DNA of 64,000 bases, from assembly GCA_021776235.1 (NCBI GenBank), contig JAJFGG010000142.1, forward strand, positions 1-64,000, written 5' to 3'. Below, in pieces: positions 8,435 to 52,156 of this stretch. Position numbers and translations under genes: made by a program. The DNA comes from Alphaproteobacteria bacterium. GTDB taxonomy: Bacteria; Pseudomonadota; Alphaproteobacteria; GCA-2731375. The notes beneath the pieces were generated by a model that worked only from the letters and a program-made list of their open reading frames with translations, made no database searches and was not told where the DNA came from. How positions within the stretch are numbered: position 1 is the first letter of the stretch; each line of letters opens with the position of its first letter.

Positions 8435-11400
8435 ATGACGCATCGCATATTCCGGTGGCTCCAGACAGCGGGCTTGTTCCTGGTTCTGTTCTGTCATTTC
8501 AGCGTTTGGTCCGCCGACCCGGCATTAAGCCAAGAACAGGTCAGGATTCAGCTGAAATGGTTCCACCAGTTTCAGTTTGCAGGTTACTACGCGGCAAAAG
8601 AAAAAGGTTTCTATGCCAGCGAAGGCCTGGACGTGGAACTGATCGAACGCGATCCTGCGGTCAACAATATTGACGAGGTGACGCAGGGCAAAGCCCAGTA
8701 CGGTGTTGCCGACGCCGGTCTTCTGCTTTCACGGCTGCAAGGAAAACCTGTCGTTATTCTGGCCCAGATTTTCCAGCATTCACCATTGGTGTATGTCACG
8801 CGCCGCGACTCGGGTTTGCGTACCCCGTATGACCTGCGGGGCAAGAATGTCATGACCGAGTCATTGGGGCATGCGGATGCCGCCCTGAACGCCATGCTGC
8901 TGAAATCCCTGGGCAGCCTGTCAAATGTCACCCTACAGAAGCATACCTACCGCTACGAAGACCTGATCGACGGCCGCACCGACGCCATGCTTGCCTATGC
9001 CACCAACGAGCCATTCTGGTTCAAAGAGAAGGGTGTCTTGGTCAACATCATCGATCCTCGGGACTACGGCATCGATTTTTACGGTGACAATCTTTTCACC
9101 ACGGATGCGGAGCTCCGCGAGCATCCGGAAAGGGCAGCGAAGATCGTTCGGGCCACGTTAAAAGGGTGGAAATACGCCCTGGAGCACAAGGCCGAGATCA
9201 TCGAATTGATCCTCAACAAATACAACTCCCAGAAATTGTCACTGCAGCACCTCCGCTTCGAGGCCGAACAAACCGAAACGATGATCAATCCCCGGTTTAT
9301 TGAATTGGGACACTTCGAGCCCAGCCGCTACCAAAAGATTGCCGAAATATACACGCAGCTGGCCCTGGCCGATCGGTTTCTGGTGGATGGGGGATTCTAC
9401 CACAAGGCGAGAAAAGACGACATTGGACTAAGCGCCGAGGAATCGGCCTGGCTCGACTCGAATCCGAGCATCCGAGTCCATAACGAGACAGATTGGCCTC
9501 CATTCAATTTTGCCAAAGATGGCAAGCCGCAGGGATATTCGATCGACTTTATGAATCTTGTCGCCAGCAAGATCGGTCTCAAGGTCGAATACATCACTGG
9601 TCCGACCTGGAATGAGTTTCTAGAGATGATGAAACGCGGCGAACTCGACGTGATGTTGAACATCGTCAAGACGCCAGAACGGCAGAAGTACCTACTCTAT
9701 ACGCCGCCCTACGCAAACAACCCAAATACCATTCTCAGCCGCAACGACAAACAATACCAAAGCCTGGAACAGTTGTTTGGCAAGACCGTTTCCGTTCCCA
9801 AAGGCTTTTTCTACGAAGAAATTCTGAAACGCGATTACCCGAAGATCATTGTCGAGACCGTCGATAATACGCTCGCCAGCATGAAAGTCGTCAGTTTTGG
9901 AACCGCCGACGCGGCCTTCGGCGAACTGGCGGTGTTCAAATATCTGATGAACGAAAACCTTATGACCGACCTGCTGGTGTCGGGTGAGGTAAAACTAGGA
10001 AACCCGGAATATGCTCTGCTGAATATTGCCACCCGCAAAGACTTGCCCATCCTTGCCTCGATCCTTAGCAAAGGCGTGAAGTCCGTCACCATGGCGGAAA
10101 AACGCGCGCTACAGGAGAAATGGTTTCCGTCGAAAAACGCCGGACAATCGGCGAGCCCGGAGGGCGACCTGAAACCGGATGGTTCGACACAGCCAATTCT
10201 GGCCATCATTGCGTTGAGTTTTTCCCTTCTATTGATTTTTGCTTTGATCATATTCTTGCTAAGCCGATCGAAGCGGGGCAAAGACCTGTCTTCCATCTTC
10301 GGTGCAGCGGAATTCAGGATTGCGATACTGGTTGGTCTCAGCGTCCTCGTGGCCATGGTCGCGGTCATGAACTGGCTGGCCATCGCTGATAGTTACAGGC
10401 GGACAGGCGTCAACACCGAGCGGGAGTTGCAAATTATCCTGCACGGCTCCATCGACCGGCTCAATACCTGGATCAATGACCGGCAAGCCTATTTGCGGCA
10501 ATTGGGGCGGGATCCAAAGCTGCTTCAAATTACCGAGAATTTGCTCTCGGTGGAACGCCGGAAAGAGGCGCTGGTGGGCGCCCCGGCTTTGGCCGAAGCG
10601 CGGCAATTTCTGGCCTCTATCGAGCAGTTCGGTCCAGCGGGATTTTTCATTATTGCACCCGACCGTATCAGCATCGGTTCGAGCCGTAACGCCAACGTCG
10701 GCACGCAGAATTTCATCGCCAAGGTTAGGCCGGATTTAGTTGACCGGGTCTTCCTGGGCCAAACAATATTTGTCCCCCCGATCCGATCTGACGTCGATAT
10801 AGGGCTTGAAGGGGGCGGCGAAAAGAAAAAGCCGCTTACCATGTTTTTTGCGGTCCCAATTACAGATGAAACTGGCGCTGTCGTCGCTGTGCTGACCGAG
10901 CGGGTACTGCCAAGCGGTCCTTTGTCAGAAATTCTGCAGCTGGGCAAAATTGGTCGCACGGGGGAATCTTATGCGGTCAACGCAGAAGCGAAAATGGTCA
11001 GTGAAAGCCGATTTGGCGACCAGCTTTTAGAGGCCGGCCTTATTGAGGCGGGCGGCACGAGTTCGGTGGAAATCGATATTCGGGATCCCGGTGGTAACAT
11101 GGTCGAGGGCTTTCGGCCGGCAGTGCCCCGCGACGGCCTCCCCATGACATTGATGATGGCGGACGCATTGCGACTGAAGGCGGACGGAACGGGGTATGTC
11201 AATGTCGACGACAGCCGAAATCTAACAGAGCATCCGTCGAGTGTTGCAGACTATCGGGACTATCGCGGTGTGCCGGTCGTCGGGGCGTGGAGCTGGCTGC
11301 ATAATCTGGATCTCGGCGTGGCAGTTGAAATAGACTACGCTGAGGCCTTTGCCGACTACTTCGAATTCCGCTTCAATCTGGTACTTATTTCCGGGATCAC

Positions 11401-12292
11401 CATGCTGCTTGCGGTTGGTGCGACCTTGTTCACGCTTCTCATGGGCCAGCGCGCCCACCGTTCATTGAGCCTGGCGCGAGATCACCTGGAAGAACGGGTC
11501 GAACAGCGGACCCAGGAATTGTCCGAAGCCTACAACATCATTTCCGGCAGTATAAACTATGCTTCGAATATCCAGCGCTCGATGTTGCCACCAGAAGACA
11601 GTTTCGTGCATGCCTTTAAGGACCATTTTCTGATTTGGGAACCGCGGGACGTTGTCGGTGGTGACATTTACTGGAACACGCCGTGGGGCGGCGGCGTCCT
11701 GGTCGTCCTCGCCGATTGCACGGGGCACGGTGTCCCCGGCGCTTTCATGACACTTATTTCTTCCGGCGCCCTGGATCGGGCGTTAGAGAATGTCCCGGCC
11801 GGAAAAGTCGCCGACCTGGTGCAGTACATGCACCAACTTGTTCAATTAAGCCTGGGACAGGAAGGCGAGAAGGGGGAGTCCGACGATGGCCTCGAACTGG
11901 GCGCGGTCTACCTGAGCTCGGGAATGAAGCATCTCACATTCGTGGGGGCAAGGTTCAGCCTCTTTATCGTTGAAGATGACGAGGTTTCCGAACTTAAAGG
12001 GACAAATCGAGGCATAGGATACCGGGGTATTCCTTTTCGGCAGGCATATAGGGAGAGCACACAACCGCTTCGGGCTGATTGCTCTTACTATTTGAGCACG
12101 GACGGGCTAATCGACCAGGTTGGCGGAGAACGCCGCCGAATGTTTGGGAAAAGGCGCTTCAAAGCCTTGCTGCAAGAGATCGAACAACTGCCTATGTCGG
12201 AACAAAAGCTGCGGATCAAAGCCGCCTTGATGGCGTATCAGGGTGACGAGGTGAGGCGTGATGACGTCTCTCTGATTGGATTCCGAATCTAA
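8435..12292 (+). CDS. SiaA-like sensor phosphatase with NMT1, SBP3, Cache-like and PP2C/SpoIIE domains
   Basis: A 1285-residue membrane sensor ending in a PPM/SpoIIE-type phosphatase. Order: signal peptide (1-33); NMT1/THI5-like periplasmic binding domain (about 35-330, starting VRIQLKWFHQFQFAGYYAAKEKG); SBP_bac_3 amino-acid-type binding domain (about 345-570, IRVHNETDWPPFNF, GYSIDFMNLVA); TM segment at about 587-611; second TM at 626-648; a large extracytoplasmic Cache-like sensor (about 655-970); third TM at 980-1003; coiled coil (DHLEERVEQRTQELSEAY); PP2C core (about 1045-1285) with IQRSMLPP, DVVGGDIYW and LADCTGHGVPGAFMT, the metal-binding aspartates being present. By analogy with Pseudomonas SiaA it should dephosphorylate the SiaC-like protein encoded downstream. 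The stacked sensory domains make it about twice the length of SiaA. Confidence 0.88.
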   Translation: MTHRIFRWLQTAGLFLVLFCHFSVWSADPALSQEQVRIQLKWFHQFQFAGYYAAKEKGFYASEGLDVELIERDPAVNNIDEVTQGKAQYGVADAGLLLSRLQGKPVVILAQIFQHSPLVYVTRRDSGLRTPYDLRGKNVMTESLGHADAALNAMLLKSLGSLSNVTLQKHTYRYEDLIDGRTDAMLAYATNEPFWFKEKGVLVNIIDPRDYGIDFYGDNLFTTDAELREHPERAAKIVRATLKGWKYALEHKAEIIELILNKYNSQKLSLQHLRFEAEQTETMINPRFIELGHFEPSRYQKIAEIYTQLALADRFLVDGGFYHKARKDDIGLSAEESAWLDSNPSIRVHNETDWPPFNFAKDGKPQGYSIDFMNLVASKIGLKVEYITGPTWNEFLEMMKRGELDVMLNIVKTPERQKYLLYTPPYANNPNTILSRNDKQYQSLEQLFGKTVSVPKGFFYEEILKRDYPKIIVETVDNTLASMKVVSFGTADAAFGELAVFKYLMNENLMTDLLVSGEVKLGNPEYALLNIATRKDLPILASILSKGVKSVTMAEKRALQEKWFPSKNAGQSASPEGDLKPDGSTQPILAIIALSFSLLLIFALIIFLLSRSKRGKDLSSIFGAAEFRIAILVGLSVLVAMVAVMNWLAIADSYRRTGVNTERELQIILHGSIDRLNTWINDRQAYLRQLGRDPKLLQITENLLSVERRKEALVGAPALAEARQFLASIEQFGPAGFFIIAPDRISIGSSRNANVGTQNFIAKVRPDLVDRVFLGQTIFVPPIRSDVDIGLEGGGEKKKPLTMFFAVPITDETGAVVAVLTERVLPSGPLSEILQLGKIGRTGESYAVNAEAKMVSESRFGDQLLEAGLIEAGGTSSVEIDIRDPGGNMVEGFRPAVPRDGLPMTLMMADALRLKADGTGYVNVDDSRNLTEHPSSVADYRDYRGVPVVGAWSWLHNLDLGVAVEIDYAEAFADYFEFRFNLVLISGITMLLAVGATLFTLLMGQRAHRSLSLARDHLEERVEQRTQELSEAYNIISGSINYASNIQRSMLPPEDSFVHAFKDHFLIWEPRDVVGGDIYWNTPWGGGVLVVLADCTGHGVPGAFMTLISSGALDRALENVPAGKVADLVQYMHQLVQLSLGQEGEKGESDDGLELGAVYLSSGMKHLTFVGARFSLFIVEDDEVSELKGTNRGIGYRGIPFRQAYRESTQPLRADCSYYLSTDGLIDQVGGERRRMFGKRRFKALLQEIEQLPMSEQKLRIKAALMAYQGDEVRRDDVSLIGFRI

Positions 12293-12425
12293 TCCGGGAT
12301 GGGCTTGATCACTATGCGCTTGCCTGAAGTCGCAAAGTCACTATCTTCGGATCAGCAGTGGTTGCCCCGACCAGTGCGCTGGGGAAAGATGGCAAAATTG
12401 TGCCGGCTATCGTGATCGTCGCATT

Positions 12426-12998
12426 ATGACCGGAGTTGTGTCGATGCTCGCTGAGGAAATGTACGAATTTCGAGGCCAGCTCAAAGAGCGGGGCATCATT
12501 TTCTGTTATAGTGGATATATGACGGAAGATGTGCTTGCGGGCATCGGCAGTGCGATCAGACGCAAGCTCGAGATCGAAGAAGCCGATCGGCGGACCGCCA
12601 AGATTCTGTTTTCAGTCTTTGTTGAACAGGTTCAGAACGTCATTCGCTATTCAGCAGAGGGCGAACCGCCGAATGTTCCGCCGGGAGACTTTGATCTGCG
12701 GTATGGGGTTTTGACTGTTGGAATCCAGGACGATATGTACTTCGTCGCATGCGGCAATCTGGTAAAAAATGCCGACGTGGATCCCCTTGGCGCTGCCTTG
12801 TCGCATATCAAGGCGTTGAGCAAGGAGGAGCTCAAAGTTCTATATAGGGAAAAACTGAAGGATGGCCCGCCGGAGGGCAGCAAGGGTGCAGGAGTTGGAT
12901 TCATCGAAATAGCGCGCCGGGCTGATAACGGCTTCGATTTCGATTTTGCTCCGATGAATGACGAGTTCTCTTACTTTTGTCTCAAGGCGTATATATAG
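12426..12998 (+). CDS. SiaB-like protein kinase (DUF6272, GHKL fold)
   Basis: The 190-residue protein resembles SiaB, the kinase that phosphorylates the STAS-like switch protein SiaC. GHKL-type features are visible: an N-box (FVEQVQNVIRYS, with E67 and N71), a central beta region (GVLTVGIQDDMYFVACGN) and a glycine-rich lid (GSKGAGVGFIEIARR, residues 151-165). There is no transmembrane segment. It lies 133 nt after the phosphatase gene and 15 nt before the SiaC-like gene, in the same direction. The Met at residue 7 (12444) is an alternative start. Expected role: phosphorylating the SiaC-like protein and so turning the output cyclase off; this is inferred from the Pseudomonas system. Confidence 0.85.
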   Translation: MTGVVSMLAEEMYEFRGQLKERGIIFCYSGYMTEDVLAGIGSAIRRKLEIEEADRRTAKILFSVFVEQVQNVIRYSAEGEPPNVPPGDFDLRYGVLTVGIQDDMYFVACGNLVKNADVDPLGAALSHIKALSKEELKVLYREKLKDGPPEGSKGAGVGFIEIARRADNGFDFDFAPMNDEFSYFCLKAYI

Positions 12999-13013
12999 GA
13001 CGGCAGTTAGAGT

Positions 13014-13400
13014 ATGGAAAACCTCAACATCCAGGCCACGCAACGGACGCCCGAAGTAGATTTCAACTTTGAGAAAAGCATCTTTTTTTTGCGTGGCGAA
13101 TCCTACCCCGAGGATGTCACCAGCTTTTATGGGCCGGTAATTAGCCAGCTCCGCGAGCATCTGGCTTCGCGTGAAGGCGTGGAGATTAGCTTCGGGTTCG
13201 AGCTCATATACTTCAACAGCAGCACCGCCAAAATTCTTTTTGGCTTGTTCGAGAATTTGGATGAAGCCGCGAGCGCTGGCAATAAGGTCAATATCACCTG
13301 GGCTTTTGAAGAAGATGACGACAACATGGAAGAGATGGGCGCCGAATTCGCCGAAGACCTTGAACACGCGGATTTTCAACTGAAGCAGTTGAAGGGCTAA
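13014..13400 (+). CDS. SiaC-like switch protein (DUF1987)
   Basis: At 128 residues this matches the SiaC family: an N-terminal STAS-like fold with TPEVDFNFEKSIFFLRGESYPED, and the conserved FELIYFNSSTAKILFGLFE block. In Pseudomonas SiaC the phosphorylated residue is Thr68; the counterpart here is most likely T71, with S69 and S70 adjacent. The acidic stretch EEDDDNMEEMG follows. The unphosphorylated form of SiaC binds and activates the diguanylate cyclase SiaD; here the gene overlaps the start of an adenylate cyclase gene by one base (TAATG), implying translational coupling and a direct partnership. Confidence 0.9.
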   Translation: MENLNIQATQRTPEVDFNFEKSIFFLRGESYPEDVTSFYGPVISQLREHLASREGVEISFGFELIYFNSSTAKILFGLFENLDEAASAGNKVNITWAFEEDDDNMEEMGAEFAEDLEHADFQLKQLKG

Positions 13401-14437
13401 TGGCATTTGAAATTTTTGAAAGAGAGTTGGCTGTTCTCAAGGACGCGACAGCCGTTCTCGAAAAGGGCGAGATCGTTGACGCTTCGGACGCCCAGCGATA
13501 TGCGCAGCTGATCAAGGACTACGAGAAACTCCTGAAATCTTCGCGGCGGTTGGTCCGCCTGAGCGACCGTACTGAAGAAAAACTGAACAAACTCGCCCGT
13601 TCCTTCGACGAGAAAAACCGGATGTTGGAGGGCCTGTCGGTCAAGCTCTCGAAATACCTGTCACCGCAGGTTTACCACTCGATATTTTCCGGAGAACAGG
13701 ATGTCGTCCTCTCGACCAAGCGCAAAAAACTGACCGTCTTCTTTTCCGATATTAAGGATTTCACGGGAACGACCGAACATCTGCAACCCGAAGATCTTGC
13801 CGAGGTGCTGAACAGGTACTTTTCCGAGATGTCCAAAATTGCTTTGCAGTACGGTGCAACCATAGACAAGTTCATCGGCGATGCCATGGTGATGTTCTTC
13901 GGCGACCCCGAAAGCAAGGGTGTTCAGGAAGATGCCCGAATATGCGTACAGATGGCGGTCGCCATGCAACGGCGCATGCGGGAACTTGAGCAAATTTGGC
14001 GAGAAAGTGGCAATGAAAAACCATTCCGCATGCGTATCGGCATCAATACGGGTTACTGCAACGTCGGAAATTTCGGCAGTGATCAGCGGATGGATTATAC
14101 CATCATAGGCAGTGAAGTGAATCTCGCCGCGCGTTTGGAAAGCAAGGCTAAAGCGGGCGGAATTTTGATGTCATATGAAACATATGCCTTGGTCCGGGAT
14201 ATGGTTGACGCCACGGAAAGAGCCCCGGTCAAGGTCAAGGGGATCGACCGCGAAATTCGTTCATTTGCCCTGAATGACATCTATGACGAGAAACTGAGCG
14301 AACGGCGCTTTCTGCGCAATAGCCGCGAGGGTATGATCCTATTGCTCGATAAAGACAAGCTCGACCAGGAAGGCTGCCAGCAAGCGGTCACGGATCTGGA
14401 GGCTGCGTTGCACGAGATCAAGGGTTGGCTCGAATGA
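13400..14437 (+). CDS. Class III adenylate cyclase, predicted output enzyme of the Sia-type module
   Basis: The 345-residue soluble protein has an N-terminal helical stalk (about 30-85; DYEKLLKSSRRLVRLSDRTE) and a class III cyclase catalytic domain (about 108-275). Catalytic residues are intact: metal ligands D117 (FSDIKDF) and D161 (GDAMVMFF), adenine-selecting K157 (TIDKFIG) and T234 (DYTIIG), and transition-state N241 and R245 (NLAARLES). The Lys/Thr pair is typical of class IIIb adenylate cyclases, so ATP to cAMP is the expected reaction. The stalk resembles the segment of SiaD that contacts SiaC. No GGDEF domain exists anywhere in the module. A C-terminal helical tail (about 300-345) follows. 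Confidence 0.88.
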   Translation: MAFEIFERELAVLKDATAVLEKGEIVDASDAQRYAQLIKDYEKLLKSSRRLVRLSDRTEEKLNKLARSFDEKNRMLEGLSVKLSKYLSPQVYHSIFSGEQDVVLSTKRKKLTVFFSDIKDFTGTTEHLQPEDLAEVLNRYFSEMSKIALQYGATIDKFIGDAMVMFFGDPESKGVQEDARICVQMAVAMQRRMRELEQIWRESGNEKPFRMRIGINTGYCNVGNFGSDQRMDYTIIGSEVNLAARLESKAKAGGILMSYETYALVRDMVDATERAPVKVKGIDREIRSFALNDIYDEKLSERRFLRNSREGMILLLDKDKLDQEGCQQAVTDLEAALHEIKGWLE

Positions 14438-14564: not shown

Positions 14565-14604
14565 AGCTAGACCTAATTCGATGAATATCGAAACTGGTCT
14601 AGCT
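14565..14604. terminator. Two-part hairpin between convergent genes
   Basis: AGCTAGACC (14565-14573) pairs perfectly with GGTCTAGCT (14596-14604), and inside it TTCGAT pairs with ATCGAA around GAAT. The structure ends exactly at the stop codon of the minus-strand dehalogenase gene and follows the cyclase gene. There is no long T-run, so termination would need Rho or the hairpin may act as an mRNA end stabiliser. Confidence 0.5.
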
Positions 14605-16826
14605 CAGCCTTTCGCCGCATTGATGCTGCCGTATACGGCGGGCTTCACATCCCGGCCCTTGGGGCCGCCGGGGTCGGGCGGCGTTGCTATATTGTAGTCA
14701 GGCGCGGCCTTACCCCGGTTGGCGCGGATCGCCGCTGCGACCGGGCTCTCGAGGATCTCGCCAATGGCCATGGCCGCCTTGCGGTCCACCGGCTGGGCGT
14801 CGAGATCGTTGGGCACTGGCATCATGCTGGCGGGATAGTAGGCCATCTTTTGTTTCGCCGGATCTAGCTTGCGGCTCGGGTCCAGGTCGCGCCGGCTGAC
14901 GCCCTTGACGGGTTCCACGCAGATATCTTCCACCACTTCCAGGTCAAACCACCATTTCTTTACGGGGTTGCGTTTGCCCTTGCCCAGATAGTCATCCAGC
15001 CAGACGGCGATCGGCACCAGCAGCGGCTTCAGCCAGCGGGCGTTGATGCCGCACCACGAGGCCAGGCGCTCCAGAATTGGGCCATCGGCGGTGACCACCT
15101 TGTTCAACGGGCAGGTCTTCATGCAGCGGCCACAGGCCGACCCCTTGGCGTTGGTCAGGCGGTAACGGGCGCAGCGCTCGGCATCCGGCTTCCACATCTC
15201 GTAGCCGTTGAACATGATCTTGTCGCCCCAGGAGATTGCGTCGCAGGGGCACTCGCGGGCGCATTTGTGGCAATTGCCGCAGAAGTATTGCAGGCCGAAG
15301 TCCACCGGCCTGTCGACCTCGAGGGGCATATCCGTGGTCAAGACAACGGATTTGAAACGCGGCCCGACGAAGGGATTGAGTACCAGTTCGCCAATCCGGG
15401 ATAATTCGCCCAGGCCGGCCCACAGCACCAGGGGGATATGCAACACATCGCTATCGACATTGGTCTGCGAACGGGCCGGAAAGCCCAATTGACGCAAGGT
15501 ATCGCCCATGACGCCGGCAATCTCGGCGCCGCGCAAATAGGCCCGCATGGACTGGGTGCCGGAAATCCAATCGTCTCCCGCTGCGCCTTCCATGGTATCG
15601 AATTCCTGATCAATCAGCATGACAACGGCATACTTGTGGTAAGGCGTAATCTCTTCCCCCTTGGCGCCGTGGGAGAACCAGGCGTAGTCGGGAACTTTAC
15701 AGATTCCCGTCAGATCGGCGCCCAGTAGATAGGATAGCGACTTCAACGCCCTGCTGTTGGCGGCGGGATCCTGATACTCCGGTGCGGCCGCATCACCATC
15801 GCGCGCAACCTCGCCACCCTGCACGGGCACCATGGCCCGCATGGATGCCATCATGCCCGAGGTATGCGGTTGCTTGAAGGCAAACCGGTGGCGTTCCTTC
15901 TGCGCTTTGGCGCCTAAATCGCCGCGCAGGGCGCGGTCGAAAAAGGCCGCCCGTTTGGAAACCCGCGGCACTTCGTTATCCAGGATCAAGGTGGTCGGAC
16001 GATCCACGCGGGGTACGGTTTCCATTGGGTAGGCGCTGAGATGTGTCGCCCGTCCGGCCCGGCGGTTGCGCTCCCGCCCCGACGTGGCGCCATTCCGGCC
16101 CAGCCAATAGCGCAGTCCCAAGCGGCCCAAGGCCGCTTTGGCCAGGGGCCGGTCGACCTCCAGTTCGTAGGCGGTCGAGACCGCCGCGATCGAGAATCCG
16201 CCTTTGATAAAAGGATTGCGTAGAACCTCGTCCTGCCGCACCACCAGGCCGGCCAGAACCGCCAGGCGATCCAGATCCAGATCGCCGGCGCCCATCACAT
16301 GGGCCTTTGCCTCGTGGCCCATTTTCTGAATATGCCCGGACAGGCAAACGGCGATGCCGCCGACGCGGGCATCCGCCGCCTCGGCCAGTGCCGGCGCGAT
16401 CCAGTGCCGGGCCGGGTTGCCGCTTTCCGGCACGCGGCCATGCTCCAGCAACAGAACCACCGCGTATTCATGCCGCGCCGCCACGCCATCGCTGGTCCAG
16501 GCATTGGCCGGGATACGGCAGATGCCAATCTGCGAGGCATTCATGAAATAGCCGTAGCCTTTCACATCCACCATGCGCCGGTGAGGATCGTCGGGGACCG
16601 GTGCCTTTGCCACGGCCGGCGCGGTCATCGCGGTTTCGACAAAAATATCCAGATAACCACGCAGGGACCGTGCCAAGGGGCCATCCGCGGGCTTGTCATA
16701 CCCAGAGGAAATTACAGGCGGACGAGCGGCCTCAATATCGACAATGCTGTCGTCGCGCGGCAGCGTCTCAAACGGGTAGCTGCCCAGATGATAGGGCCGT
16801 TGATCGCCTTTTGTGGTGAACAGCAT
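14604..16826 (-). CDS. Reductive dehalogenase-like protein, soluble, with duplicated cobalamin-binding module
   Basis: The 740-residue protein belongs to the reductive dehalogenase/epoxyqueuosine reductase-like superfamily, which uses cobalamin and two [4Fe-4S] clusters to reduce organohalides. Residues about 510-575 hold both cluster motifs: CGNCHKCARECP and CARYRL with ACGRCMKTCP. The preceding half contains LSAYPMETVPR, LTGICKVPDYAWFSHG and EVDRPVDFGLQYFC. The first 250 residues repeat this layout (LGSYPFETLPR, IGICRIPANAW, ELEVDRPL) without clusters, so the B12 module is duplicated, as described for soluble NpRdhA-type enzymes. No Tat signal and no membrane-anchor partner are visible, which fits a cytoplasmic catabolic enzyme. 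SD GAGGAGCG precedes the ATG, and a perfect palindrome lies 94 bp upstream. Confidence 0.85.
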   Translation of the reverse strand: MLFTTKGDQRPYHLGSYPFETLPRDDSIVDIEAARPPVISSGYDKPADGPLARSLRGYLDIFVETAMTAPAVAKAPVPDDPHRRMVDVKGYGYFMNASQIGICRIPANAWTSDGVAARHEYAVVLLLEHGRVPESGNPARHWIAPALAEAADARVGGIAVCLSGHIQKMGHEAKAHVMGAGDLDLDRLAVLAGLVVRQDEVLRNPFIKGGFSIAAVSTAYELEVDRPLAKAALGRLGLRYWLGRNGATSGRERNRRAGRATHLSAYPMETVPRVDRPTTLILDNEVPRVSKRAAFFDRALRGDLGAKAQKERHRFAFKQPHTSGMMASMRAMVPVQGGEVARDGDAAAPEYQDPAANSRALKSLSYLLGADLTGICKVPDYAWFSHGAKGEEITPYHKYAVVMLIDQEFDTMEGAAGDDWISGTQSMRAYLRGAEIAGVMGDTLRQLGFPARSQTNVDSDVLHIPLVLWAGLGELSRIGELVLNPFVGPRFKSVVLTTDMPLEVDRPVDFGLQYFCGNCHKCARECPCDAISWGDKIMFNGYEMWKPDAERCARYRLTNAKGSACGRCMKTCPLNKVVTADGPILERLASWCGINARWLKPLLVPIAVWLDDYLGKGKRNPVKKWWFDLEVVEDICVEPVKGVSRRDLDPSRKLDPAKQKMAYYPASMMPVPNDLDAQPVDRKAAMAIGEILESPVAAAIRANRGKAAPDYNIATPPDPGGPKGRDVKPAVYGSINAAKG

Positions 16827-17212: not shown

Positions 17213-18550
17213 ATGTCCCGCAACGAAGCTTACATCGCTGCGCATCGCTTTGGACTTGGACCGAAGCCGGACGAAATTAGGCACATCGGCTCCGACCCGA
17301 GAGGCTGGTTGATCGAGCAGCTTCACGCCGCCCCGATAACCCCCAAGGCTATGCTGGAACTGCCCGCTTCGAGGGAAAATGTGCTCGACTGGTGGGATGC
17401 GGTAATGATCAGCGTTGCCGAGTTGGTAAAACGTATCCGCAACGACTACCGTGCGCTCTGGCGTCGCGAGGCGAAAGCCCGCCTGGCAGCCGCGATCACC
17501 ACCGAGCAGCCATTTCGCGAAAGACTGGTCTGGTTCTGGGGCAATCATTTTACGGTTTCCGGACGCAAGGCCGTCGCTATCGGCATGGCCGGTGGCCACG
17601 AGCGCGAGGCGATCCGTCCCCATGTGACGGGACGATTCCAGGATATGCTGTATAATGCGACTTCCCATCCCGGCATGCTGTTCTATCTCGACAATTACGC
17701 CTCTGTCGGGCCGCACTCCTATCGGGGCGGGGTGACGTACTATAACCAGGGTTTGAATGAAAACCTGGCCCGCGAAATCCTCGAACTTCATACCCTTGGG
17801 GTTGATGGCGGCTATAGCCAGCAGGACGTGCGCGAATTCGCCAAGATGTTGACCGGCTGGACGTTTGGCCGGCGCTATAACCCGACGCCCGGCGCCTTTC
17901 ATTTTCGCGAGAAGACTCACGAACCGGGCGACAAGGTCTTGCTTGGCCGCACCTTTCGCCCTGATGGCGTGAATGAAGGCCGTGCGGCCCTGGAATGGCT
18001 TGCCGGACAGGACGCCACCGCCCGGCATCTGGCCTTCAAACTGGCGCGCCACTTCATTGCCGACCAGCCGCCTCCGGCTGCCGTTGATAAACTGGCGCGG
18101 ACCTTTATGGAGACCGAGGGCGACCTGATGGAACTGGCTCAGGCTCTGGTCAATCTGCCCGAGGCCTGGGATCCGATGTTGCGTAAGTTCAAGACGCCAC
18201 AGGAATATGTGGTTGGCGCCATGCGTGCGGTGGGCGGCAATACGGATTATGGTGAGCTGATGTCCGTTCTCACCTCCTTTGGCCAGCTGCCCTTCATGGC
18301 GCTGTCGCCGGCCGGTTGGCCGGATAAGGAGACGGCCTGGTTGAACCCTGACAGCGCTTTGCGCCGGGCGCGGTTTGCGGTTTCAGTCGCGGGCCGGCGA
18401 TCGGCCGACGATCCGGGCGCGGTGCAAATCGCGGCGAACAGCACGGGAGATTTACTGCCGCAGAATGTTTTGCAGCAGATTACCGAGGCCACAAATCCGA
18501 AAGAGGCACTGGCACTGCTTTTGGCAAGCCCCACGATGCAGCGGCGATAA
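17213..18550 (+). CDS. DUF1800 domain-containing protein
   Basis: The 445-residue protein shows the DUF1800 pattern: an N-terminal AAHRFGLGP block, RERLVWFWGNHFTVS, MLFYLDN, GLNENLAREILELHTLGVDGGYSQQDVREFAKMLTGWT in sections, and a C-terminal GWPD motif. The biochemical function of DUF1800 is unknown; the gene is nearly always paired with a DUF1501 gene, as here 16 nt downstream. No signal peptide is evident at the N-terminus, unlike its partner. It leads a plus-strand cluster that continues to 26.56 kb. An AAGG sequence about 10 nt before the ATG is a weak Shine-Dalgarno. Confidence 0.9.
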   Translation: MSRNEAYIAAHRFGLGPKPDEIRHIGSDPRGWLIEQLHAAPITPKAMLELPASRENVLDWWDAVMISVAELVKRIRNDYRALWRREAKARLAAAITTEQPFRERLVWFWGNHFTVSGRKAVAIGMAGGHEREAIRPHVTGRFQDMLYNATSHPGMLFYLDNYASVGPHSYRGGVTYYNQGLNENLAREILELHTLGVDGGYSQQDVREFAKMLTGWTFGRRYNPTPGAFHFREKTHEPGDKVLLGRTFRPDGVNEGRAALEWLAGQDATARHLAFKLARHFIADQPPPAAVDKLARTFMETEGDLMELAQALVNLPEAWDPMLRKFKTPQEYVVGAMRAVGGNTDYGELMSVLTSFGQLPFMALSPAGWPDKETAWLNPDSALRRARFAVSVAGRRSADDPGAVQIAANSTGDLLPQNVLQQITEATNPKEALALLLASPTMQRR

Positions 18551-49109: not shown

Positions 49110-50446
49110 TTCGTTTCCTTCCCGGCAACGGCCTCGGTACGCCCCAGCAGATACCAGGTCGACATCTTTCCCTTACCCTTGACCGCAATTTCGCCACGGG
49201 GGGCCAGTTGATAGCGGATATCCAGCCGTTGCCGCAACTGATCGGAAACCTGAATACGGTCCGGCTCGCCCAGGGTCTGCATCCGCGAGGCTATATTTAC
49301 CGTATCGCCCCATAAATCATACATGAAGCGCCGTTGACCAATAACCCCCGCCGTCAACCCGCCCACGTGAATGCCAATGCGCACTCGTACGGGGTTGCCA
49401 TCGGGATCGCGTACCTGGCCGGCCGCTTTTTGCATCGCCAGGGCCAAATCCGCCATGGCCGGCAAATGCTCCGTACGGTCACCGGACACCCCGCCCGCCA
49501 CCATGTAGGAATCGCCGATGGTCTTGATTTTTTCCAGGCCGTGCTCCGCCGTCAAGGCATCGAAACTGGCGAACAGTTGGTTCAATAGGGCCAGGGTCTG
49601 ATCTGGGCGGCAGCGGGCGGCCAGGGCCGTAAAGCCCACGATGTCGGCGAACAGAACTGTGGCGTCGGTATATTCATCCACTACCGTCTCGCCCCGTTGC
49701 AGGCGCTCGGCCACCGGGGCGGGCAGAATGGAGGTCAAAAGCTCATGATAACGGGCGCGCTGGTCCTCCAGCCGGCGGGCGTTCAGGTGGTCCAGCCGGC
49801 GCAACCGTTCGGCCCGGTGCAGGGCGGCAATGCCGACCACGTTCGCCGCCGCCAGTTGTGCCGCCAGCATGCCCAGCAATTGGCCGTTCGCCACCCCGGC
49901 AAAGGCGGTGAAGACCAGATAGACCAGGCTGGCGGTCAGCACCGTGCCGATGCAGTACGCGAATATCAACGGCACCACCAGATAGCTGGCCAGCACCAAC
50001 AGCATGATGCCGGACAGATACAGCACCGGCACCTCTACCATGGCGTTGGTCAGGCCGGCCGCCAGGGTCATGGCATGCACGGCAAGGAGCATCAGCAGTG
50101 GCCAGCGGGTGCGGAAAAAGGGCAGATATGTCAGGGCCAGCAGTAAAAACAGACACAGGGTCAAAACAATTGTGCGCGCCAGAACGAAAGTCATTCCGCC
50201 GGCCGGCAGCACCCAGGGGTCAATGGCCGCGAAAGCGAGCTCAATCGCCAAAGCCAGCCATAGGACAAAGCGCGCCTGGCCCAGATTTCTGTTGCGTTCA
50301 GCGGCGCGAAATTCCGTTTCCAGGTTACGATCCACGAAGACCAGGCGGCGGCCCATCTGGCCCCACTCGGCATCATCCGAGGGCCGGCTCGTGGCCGCGC
50401 CCGCCGACACTGCCGGCGTCATCGCCGCGGCGTCACTGCCTGCCAT
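49106..50446 (-). CDS. Membrane-bound class III adenylate/guanylate cyclase
   Basis: From the ATG at 50446 the product has about 446 residues: a cytoplasmic N-terminus, five or six TM helices (about residues 60-215), a linker with [17 protein letters not shown], then the class III catalytic domain. Metal and substrate residues are visible in [16 protein letters not shown], the adenine-type Lys in [16 protein letters not shown], Asp in [14 protein letters not shown] with the transition-state Asn and Arg. The Lys-Asp pair fits class IIIa adenylate cyclase. The frame is open to a TTG at 50503, but an AAGGGG Shine-Dalgarno supports the ATG. It is divergent from another cyclase gene. Confidence 0.9.
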
Positions 50447-50629: not shown

Positions 50630-52156
50630 ATGATATCGAGCATGACCGCCGCGCAAGCCTACCGGATAACCGTCGAGACCGCCGCAAAACCCGTTCGGGC
50701 CCTGCATGGCGGATTGCTTTTGGCGGCAAGCGACAAGACCTTGGTGATGCACGAGACCGGTTTGCAGTCGTATCACTATTTTCCCCGTGAGGCTGTCGCG
50801 GAAGGCTTGTTGCAGGCATCTACCCGGCGCACCTTTTGCCCCTTCAAGGGCACGGCCAGTTATTGGCACCTGGATTTGCCTAACGGCTTGGTGGAGAATG
50901 CCGCTTTCAGTTACGAGACGCCGTTTCCCGAAGCCGCCGCCATAGCCGGGCATATCGCCTTTATGGATGCTGCCCTGGATCAGCCGTTAAGCCTTGTCGC
51001 CCCTGATGTGAATGTCTCCGGGCCCTTGGTGGACTGGCTGTTGCGGGACGCCTGGCTATGTAAGAGCCCGGAGGAATTGACGGAACAGTTCGGGAAAAAA
51101 CTGGTCGACAGTGGTGTTCCCCTGTGGCGGTTGAACGTGGGCATCAGGACCCTGCATCCGCAGTTGGCCAGCCACAACTACAGATGGCTGCGCGGCGTCG
51201 ATGGCGTGATGGCGTTCGGCATGCCCCAGGGCATGCTGTTACAACCGGCCTATCTGAACAGCCCCGTGCGCCATGTCAGCGAAGGCCTGGGCGGCGTGCG
51301 CCAGCGCCTGGACCGGGCCGGCGAGACAGAGTTCCGCTTTCCGGTAATGGATGAATTGCGGGCCCAGGGCGGCACCGACTATGTTGCCATGCCCCTGCCT
51401 TTTTCCGATGGCCAGATCAATACCATAACGTTTACGTCCGACCATCCGGACGGATTCTCCACGGCCGACCTGGGCGCGGTGTTTCAATGCGTCTTCGGCC
51501 TCAGCCGGTTTTATGAAACCATGACCCTGCGGCAGAATACCCGGACTTTGCTGACCACCTATCTTGGCCAGCGCTCGGGAACCAGGGTCCTGAATGGCGA
51601 AACCCAACGCGGCTCGGGGGAAGAAATCCGCGCCGCCATTTTGTATTGCGATCTGCGCAATTCCACACAGCTGGCGGCCTCTTTGCCGCGCGGCGCCTAC
51701 CTGGATTTGCTGAACAATTATTTTGAAGCGGTGTCCGAGCCAATCCTGTCCCGTTGGGGAGAGGTTCTGAAGTTCATTGGCGACGCTGTCCTGGCTATTT
51801 TTCCCGTTGAGGGCGACCCGGCCAAGGCCTGCGGCCTGGCCCATGAGGCGGCGGAGGAGATTATCGCGCGCCTGGCGGAGACGGATGATCCTCCGCTGCG
51901 TTGCGCCATTGGCCTGCATCTGGGCGAGGTTACCTTTGGCAATGTCGGCGCGCCGGAACGGCTCGACTTCACGGTCATCGGCAGCGCCGCCAATCTGGCC
52001 GCCCGCCTGTCGGAGCAGTGCAAGGTGCTGGATCGGTCCTTGCTGTTCTCCGGTGCCGTGCAACAGGCCCTACCCGAGGGCATGCTGCCCCTGGGCCGGC
52101 ATGACCTGCATAATATTCCAGGCGCGACGGAAATCTACACCAGCCAGCCCCAATAG
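50630..52156 (+). CDS. DUF427-class III cyclase fusion protein
   Basis: A 508-residue soluble protein in three parts. Residues about 23-112 are a DUF427 domain (LVMHETGLQSYHYFPREAV, TFCPFKGTASYWHL, ENAAFSYETPFPEAAAIAGHIAF). Residues about 135-325 form a possible GAF-like regulatory region. About 332-500 is a class III cyclase domain: AAILYCDLRNSTQLA (metal Asp), VLKFIGDAVLAIF (Lys and Asp), LDFTVIGSAANLAARL (Thr, Asn, Arg), all consistent with adenylate cyclase of class IIIb type. The Met at 50642 (MTAAQAYR) is an equally good start. It is transcribed away from the membrane cyclase gene across about 180 nt. Confidence 0.87.
   Translation: MISSMTAAQAYRITVETAAKPVRALHGGLLLAASDKTLVMHETGLQSYHYFPREAVAEGLLQASTRRTFCPFKGTASYWHLDLPNGLVENAAFSYETPFPEAAAIAGHIAFMDAALDQPLSLVAPDVNVSGPLVDWLLRDAWLCKSPEELTEQFGKKLVDSGVPLWRLNVGIRTLHPQLASHNYRWLRGVDGVMAFGMPQGMLLQPAYLNSPVRHVSEGLGGVRQRLDRAGETEFRFPVMDELRAQGGTDYVAMPLPFSDGQINTITFTSDHPDGFSTADLGAVFQCVFGLSRFYETMTLRQNTRTLLTTYLGQRSGTRVLNGETQRGSGEEIRAAILYCDLRNSTQLAASLPRGAYLDLLNNYFEAVSEPILSRWGEVLKFIGDAVLAIFPVEGDPAKACGLAHEAAEEIIARLAETDDPPLRCAIGLHLGEVTFGNVGAPERLDFTVIGSAANLAARLSEQCKVLDRSLLFSGAVQQALPEGMLPLGRHDLHNIPGATEIYTSQPQ

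Follow-up and report, generated by a model that had tools for sequence, protein, structure and literature searches.

Does a SiaABC-type partner switch govern cAMP when the gene that follows siaC encodes a class III cyclase and not a GGDEF enzyme? The question is raised by positions 8435–14437 of a 64,000-nucleotide stretch of alphaproteobacterial DNA (contig JAJFGG010000142.1; hereafter, the window). A first-pass annotation, made from the letters alone, had read four consecutive genes there as a Sia switch wired to an adenylate cyclase. Its families, gene order, and gene overlap were confirmed by our analysis, and its inferred wiring was supported; it had not recognized the serine acceptor, the further kinds of output, or the docking motif described below. 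We propose, with a probability of roughly 0.8, that the locus is a SiaABC partner-switching module with an adenylate cyclase output, in which dephosphorylated SiaC would grip the cyclase stalk and raise cAMP.

Organization and recurrence of the locus

The features of the locus are as follows.

8435–12292, plus strand: siaA-like phosphatase gene (1285 aa)
aa 45–254 of the SiaA-like protein, plus strand: NMT1 solute-binding domain (domain match)
aa 346–565 of the SiaA-like protein, plus strand: SBP_bac_3 solute-binding domain (domain match)
near aa 591–609, 627–645, and 982–1000 of the SiaA-like protein, plus strand: hydrophobic segments (from the sequence)
11690–12286, plus strand: C-terminal PP2C/SpoIIE catalytic domain, aa 1086–1284 (SpoIIE PF07228)
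12426–12998, plus strand: siaB-family kinase gene (190 aa)
13014–13400, plus strand: siaC-family switch gene (128 aa)
13218–13220, plus strand: Ser69 codon of SiaC, at the aligned position of Pseudomonas SiaC Thr68
13400–14437, plus strand: class III adenylate cyclase gene (345 aa)
13400–13618, plus strand: putative N-terminal SiaC-docking module, aa 1–73 (profile shared with other output types)
13547–13576, plus strand: predicted core docking motif RLVRLSDRTE, aa 50–59 (alignment with SiaD)
13718–14272, plus strand: class III cyclase catalytic domain (PF00211)

As first annotated, the four ORFs lie at these positions on one strand, siaC and the cyclase gene share one base (TAATG), and no GGDEF gene is present within 8435–14437. 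siaB is located directly upstream of siaC with a spacing of 15 bp. Because the gap between siaA and siaB is 133 bp, co-transcription of these two genes is not certain. Promoter and terminator scans at the locus gave signals at about the level of shuffled sequence. The G+C content of the operon is 0.50–0.54 compared with 0.60 for the window, and SiaC was found in 1 of 15 genomes of the source organism's family, so the operon was probably acquired, or lost widely in relatives.

A search for DUF1987 genes followed by a class III cyclase, which the first-pass annotation had suggested, was carried out on related SiaC genes taken from 80 contigs and sampled genomes. The order SiaB-SiaC-cyclase was found in ~38 distinct loci spanning alphaproteobacteria, gammaproteobacteria, Magnetococcales, and desulfovibrios, and such recurrence means that the arrangement is not due to chance. 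In most of these loci, the cyclase start lies between −4 and +3 bp relative to the siaC stop, and a 1- or 4-base start/stop overlap, or near contact, was seen in most siaC-cyclase pairs. Other SiaC genes were followed by GGDEF, PAS-GGDEF-EAL, GAF-HD-GYP, or histidine-kinase genes.

Phosphatase, kinase, and switch protein

The proposed identity of the first gene product, a membrane PP2C/SpoIIE phosphatase, was supported by the match to SpoIIE PF07228 together with the hydrophobic segments. Motifs near the PP2C domain are VVGGD (aa 1073), LADCTGHGVPGA (aa 1092), STDG (aa 1221), and RRDD (aa 1274), and the closest solved relative of the domain is P. aeruginosa SiaA (6k4e, 5e-54). Two different solute-binding domains are arranged in tandem, and the region between the hydrophobic segments has no domain assignment. 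The protein scores below the SiaA equivalog cut-off, and its sensor part differs. Judged by these features, it meets the description of a membrane PP2C phosphatase of the SiaA type.

The kinase, annotated as SiaB-like GHKL, matched DUF6272 and NF038262 (SiaB_fam_kinase; 1e-55, 187.9 bits, cut-off 85) and, at 7e-17, the solved Pseudomonas SiaB (6kko). The SiaC-like DUF1987 protein was likewise recovered by PF09345 (SiaC, formerly DUF1987; 1e-39, 134.9 bits, cut-off 24.5) and matched the solved SiaC (6kko/7e6g) at 1e-14. Both genes are single copy in the source genome. The SiaC of the window keeps the SiaD-contact residues Y66, N68, S69, S70, E111, and D115. Threonine phosphorylation, which the first-pass annotation had carried over from Pseudomonas, does not apply as such: the residue at the SiaC T68 position is Ser69. 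A hydroxyl acceptor is thus present, serine is the usual residue across the loci collected, and Ser69 is the predicted phospho-acceptor. Across output classes, the SiaC contact residues Y31, Y65, N67, T/S68, E/D110, and D/E114 were kept whichever output followed, and only T/S and E/D exchanges were seen among them.

The class III cyclase

The fourth gene product matched PF00211 (5e-29), in agreement with its annotation, and the catalytic residues said to be intact (K157, T234, N241, and R245, with the metal-binding D117 and D161) are all present. Against P. aeruginosa CyaB (3r5g), the match was 4e-68, with ~54% identity in the catalytic domain and rank 1 in Foldseek. The protein therefore meets the description of a CyaB-like class III adenylate cyclase; conversion of ATP to cAMP is inferred. 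CyaB is a membrane enzyme, whereas the window cyclase lacks hydrophobic segments and bears the putative SiaC-docking module. CyaB is not known to be a SiaC target.

An AlphaFold2 prediction with 29 SiaC-linked cyclases (mean pLDDT 84.3, pTM 0.64) gave a short helix at residues 7–21, then a continuous long helix at 28–84 joined to the class III fold, with a further helix at the C terminus. The motif at residues 50–59 sits on the 28–84 helix.

The source genome contains 49 class III cyclase domains in total, a large number for one genome, and the contribution of the window cyclase to total cAMP may for this reason be small. Catalytic domains 62–64% identical to that of the window cyclase are found in two other cyclases of the genome (L104 and L108), which have PAS sensors where the window cyclase has the docking module and which do not lie beside SiaC. 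The genome also has ten PF00027 (cyclic-nucleotide-binding domain) matches, which make it likely that the organism has cAMP receptors. Two further class III cyclase domains are located in the window itself, at 49145–49678 (minus strand) and 51632–52021 (plus strand).

A predicted SiaC-docking module in the cyclase stalk

No domain was found by Pfam search in the N-terminal region of the cyclase or of the other outputs that share it. A profile of this region across output proteins defined a module of ~70 aa with the consensus M-x-F-x-L-F-x-x-E-E ... L-L-x-x-Y-x-K-L-x-K-x-x-R-R-L-x-R-x-S-D-R-x-E/Q. When the module profile, which contained no SiaD, was run against 177,635 PDB sequences, the top match was SiaD (7e6g) at its SiaC-binding stalk, with an E value of 0.0012. 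The match is short, and the E value taken alone is modest. PDB searches with single SiaD-like stalk sequences, unlike the profile searches, returned nothing useful.

In the SiaC-SiaD crystal, SiaC touches SiaD residues R74, K77, V78, R80, I81, S82, D83, R84, Y85, Q86, M88, R90, and D91, and SiaC T68 phosphorylation or the N67A/T68A/S69A mutant abolishes SiaD binding (PMC8457831). The SiaD stalk sequence LRRLEKVARISDRYQQMMRDLN can be aligned with LLKSSRRLVRLSDRTEEKLNKL of the window cyclase. In this alignment, RLVRLSDRTE is equivalent to SiaD K77-V78-x-R80-I81-S82-D83-R84-Y85-Q86, and cyclase R50, R53, S55, D56, and R57 align with the SiaC-contacting K77, R80, S82, D83, and R84 (7e6g). Among 110 distinct module sequences, S55 was kept in 103, D56 in 108, R57 in 101, and R53 in 96. 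The window cyclase thus meets the description of an output stalk with a predicted SiaC-binding motif; physical binding is inferred. SiaD has two SiaC sites compared with one predicted in the cyclase, in which E59 stands at the Q86 position and S47 at the R74 position, and the affinity for SiaC may differ between the two proteins for these reasons.

The last residue of the motif was mostly Q with GGDEF and kinase outputs and E with cyclase and HD-GYP outputs. The idea that this residue tracks the SiaC acceptor was dropped, since nearly all of the acceptors are Ser.

Co-occurrence of the module with SiaC

A control profile trained solely on non-cyclase outputs detected the window cyclase at 1.1e-17. 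With this profile, the module was found in 37 of 38 SiaC-adjacent cyclases and in 0 of 29 others (Fisher 4e-18); the one missed (L088) has a frame split into two ORFs, and the module is on the first of these. In the class sample (385 genomes), in which SiaC-positive means above the cut-off and 5 of the 13 SiaC-positive genomes supplied rows to the profile, the module was present in 13/13 SiaC-positive and 1/372 SiaC-negative genomes. The corresponding numbers in the Pseudomonadota sample (398 genomes, partly overlapping with the class sample) were 55/66 and 3/332 (Fisher 2e-52).

Eleven SiaC-positive genomes of the phylum sample gave no module match. Two of these, G412 and G663, have a weak module that adjoins SiaC (L151 and L157). 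Seven others comprised two with SiaD-type GGDEF proteins that carry the motif, one with a shortened HD-GYP stalk, and four without a recognizable docking gene in the stretch examined. No docking neighbor was found at some SiaC loci either. SiaC can therefore have other targets.

In the source genome, the module occurred once, in the window cyclase, when all candidates to E 10 were scored. With a class III cyclase downstream of siaC where SiaD would stand, and no docking GGDEF protein found in this genome, the locus falls short of a strict SiaABCD c-di-GMP pathway. A SiaD-like GGDEF partner beside the block in relatives would have counted against the annotation; no docking GGDEF was found near the cyclase loci, and the extra docking outputs there were histidine kinases or HD-GYP proteins.

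One module match remains unexplained: a small histidine kinase whose stalk is docking-like (L137:1486–2448) in a genome in which no SiaC was detected (G074). Docking HD-GYP proteins without SiaC in the fetched stretch were also seen (L168–L170, L172–L174, L180, and L187); their genomes do have SiaC, and these proteins are possible SiaC targets in trans.

Exchange of outputs on the switch

The module is fused to class III cyclase, GGDEF, GGDEF-EAL, GAF-HD-GYP, and histidine-kinase outputs. On a SiaB+SiaC tree (a quick tree, without bootstrap), no fewer than 14 changes of output type are required, against a shuffled mean of 42.7, and the starred branches alone force 5 changes for the cyclase label. 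The SiaB/SiaC pairs of Roseospirillum (L030:8387–9460, adenylate cyclase) and Rhodospira (L037:8475–10388, GGDEF-EAL) are sisters with an SH-aLRT of 100, a placement that reads as a recent output swap. At L069, L082, and L094, the catalytic domain of the module-bearing cyclase belongs to a separate class III clade (SH-aLRT 100; catalytic domain 36–37% identical), so the module was probably joined to such cyclases on two or more occasions.

Neighborhoods with a docking histidine kinase alongside a docking cyclase were found at L015, L018, L021, L030, L032, L054, and L066. We consider it likely that the ~70-residue docking module defines an exchangeable plug-in family through which a single Ser/Thr phospho-switch would control five or more kinds of output. 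By this reading, exchange of outputs has taken place many times, and in some bacteria one SiaC would drive both the cyclase and the histidine kinase of the same operon.

Docking histidine kinases lie just 3′ of the SiaC-linked cyclase at L021:3170–5329, L030:9457–10356, and L032:9436–11607. These downstream kinases are of the HisKA-HATPase type, some with REC-Hpt, and present one switch with two possible outputs. At L042:3404–4190, two tandem SiaC genes are followed by a single docking GGDEF gene.

Proposed mechanism and alternatives

The proposed control of cAMP by the SiaC switch, by way of the cyclase, is supported by the SiaD-like motif, the co-occurrence of module and SiaC, and the single carrier in the genome, although the regulation itself is unproven. 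By our reading, the SiaA-like protein would sense an external signal, itself inferred, through its solute-binding domains and, on that signal, strip the phosphate from SiaC Ser69; the SiaB kinase would re-phosphorylate this residue. Unphosphorylated SiaC would bind the cyclase at the S-D-R motif of its long helical stalk and most likely pin two stalks as a parallel dimer (the complex was not modeled), upon which the paired class III domains would form the shared active site and produce cAMP. Phosphorylation of Ser69 would break the contact between SiaC and the stalk, and cAMP would fall.

The docking evidence leaves the sign of this control undetermined. SiaC might dock on the stalk and inhibit the cyclase, or phospho-SiaC might be the active partner, opposite to the situation in SiaD. 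Class III dimers can be kept inactive by their stalk, the cyclase has one site and not two, and the residue next to the phosphosite is E59 where SiaD has Q86. The same SiaC contact surface is nevertheless conserved, and in SiaD it is unphosphorylated SiaC that activates, while the phosphorylated form fails to bind (PMC8457831). We consider the opposite sign unlikely, though it deserves to be kept in mind; activation by unphosphorylated SiaC, like the cAMP product, is an inference drawn from SiaD and CyaB.

Much harder to sustain is a scheme in which the cyclase is merely co-transcribed with siaABC, its stalk is a generic coiled coil, and the switch targets some other protein, e.g., a sigma-factor regulator or an unlinked c-di-GMP enzyme. 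It could draw on the SiaC loci without a docking neighbor and on the long stalks common in cyclases. However, all 29 cyclases not adjoining SiaC lack the module, the association of the module with SiaC holds across genomes and kinds of output, and no second carrier was found in the source genome down to E 10. The cyclase as an accidental neighbor of siaC was rejected on the recurrence of the gene order and the coupling of module and SiaC. We attach equally little weight to cGMP or another cyclic nucleotide as the product. Some bacterial class III enzymes are promiscuous, and PF00211 also takes in guanylate cyclases, but the window enzyme has the ATP-type pair of CyaB-like cyclases (K157/T234), and the solved structure nearest to it is that of an adenylyl cyclase.

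Relation to known systems

The locus shares with P. aeruginosa SiaABCD (PMC8457831, PMC7647112) the three switch proteins and their order, an output gene straight after siaC, and an N-terminal helical stalk with an S-D-R motif. It differs in its output (a class III adenylate cyclase in place of the GGDEF diguanylate cyclase SiaD), in having one docking motif and Ser69 compared with two motifs and Thr68, and in a SiaA-like sensor that carries solute-binding domains. HsbA-HsbD and BgrV-BgrR (named in PMC8457831) likewise place a PP2C/kinase/STAS-like switch on a nucleotide cyclase, but their STAS-protein switch family is different and their outputs are GGDEF only. DUF1987 proteins have been suggested to modulate adjacent proteins (PMC8457831), in which a text search found no mention of adenylate cyclase. 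No link between SiaC and adenylate cyclase was found in the literature searched, with many subscription papers outside its coverage. The switch itself is already known; to the extent that this could be checked, neither the cAMP output nor the docking module common to the outputs has been described before.

If the proposal is true, a Ser/Thr partner switch would be a direct regulator of cAMP, and SiaC would be a general adaptor, not a regulator of c-di-GMP alone, with targets predictable by a short motif. The adjacency suggestion of PMC8457831 is thereby taken up at the sequence level, with both the targets and the contact named.

Elsewhere in the window, 14604–16826 (minus strand) encodes a protein of 740 aa that has a 4Fe-4S double-cluster region and seemingly repeated halves, and that resembles the reductive-dehalogenase type by weak Pfam matches only. 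A DUF1800 protein is encoded directly past this gene, at 17213–18550 (plus strand).
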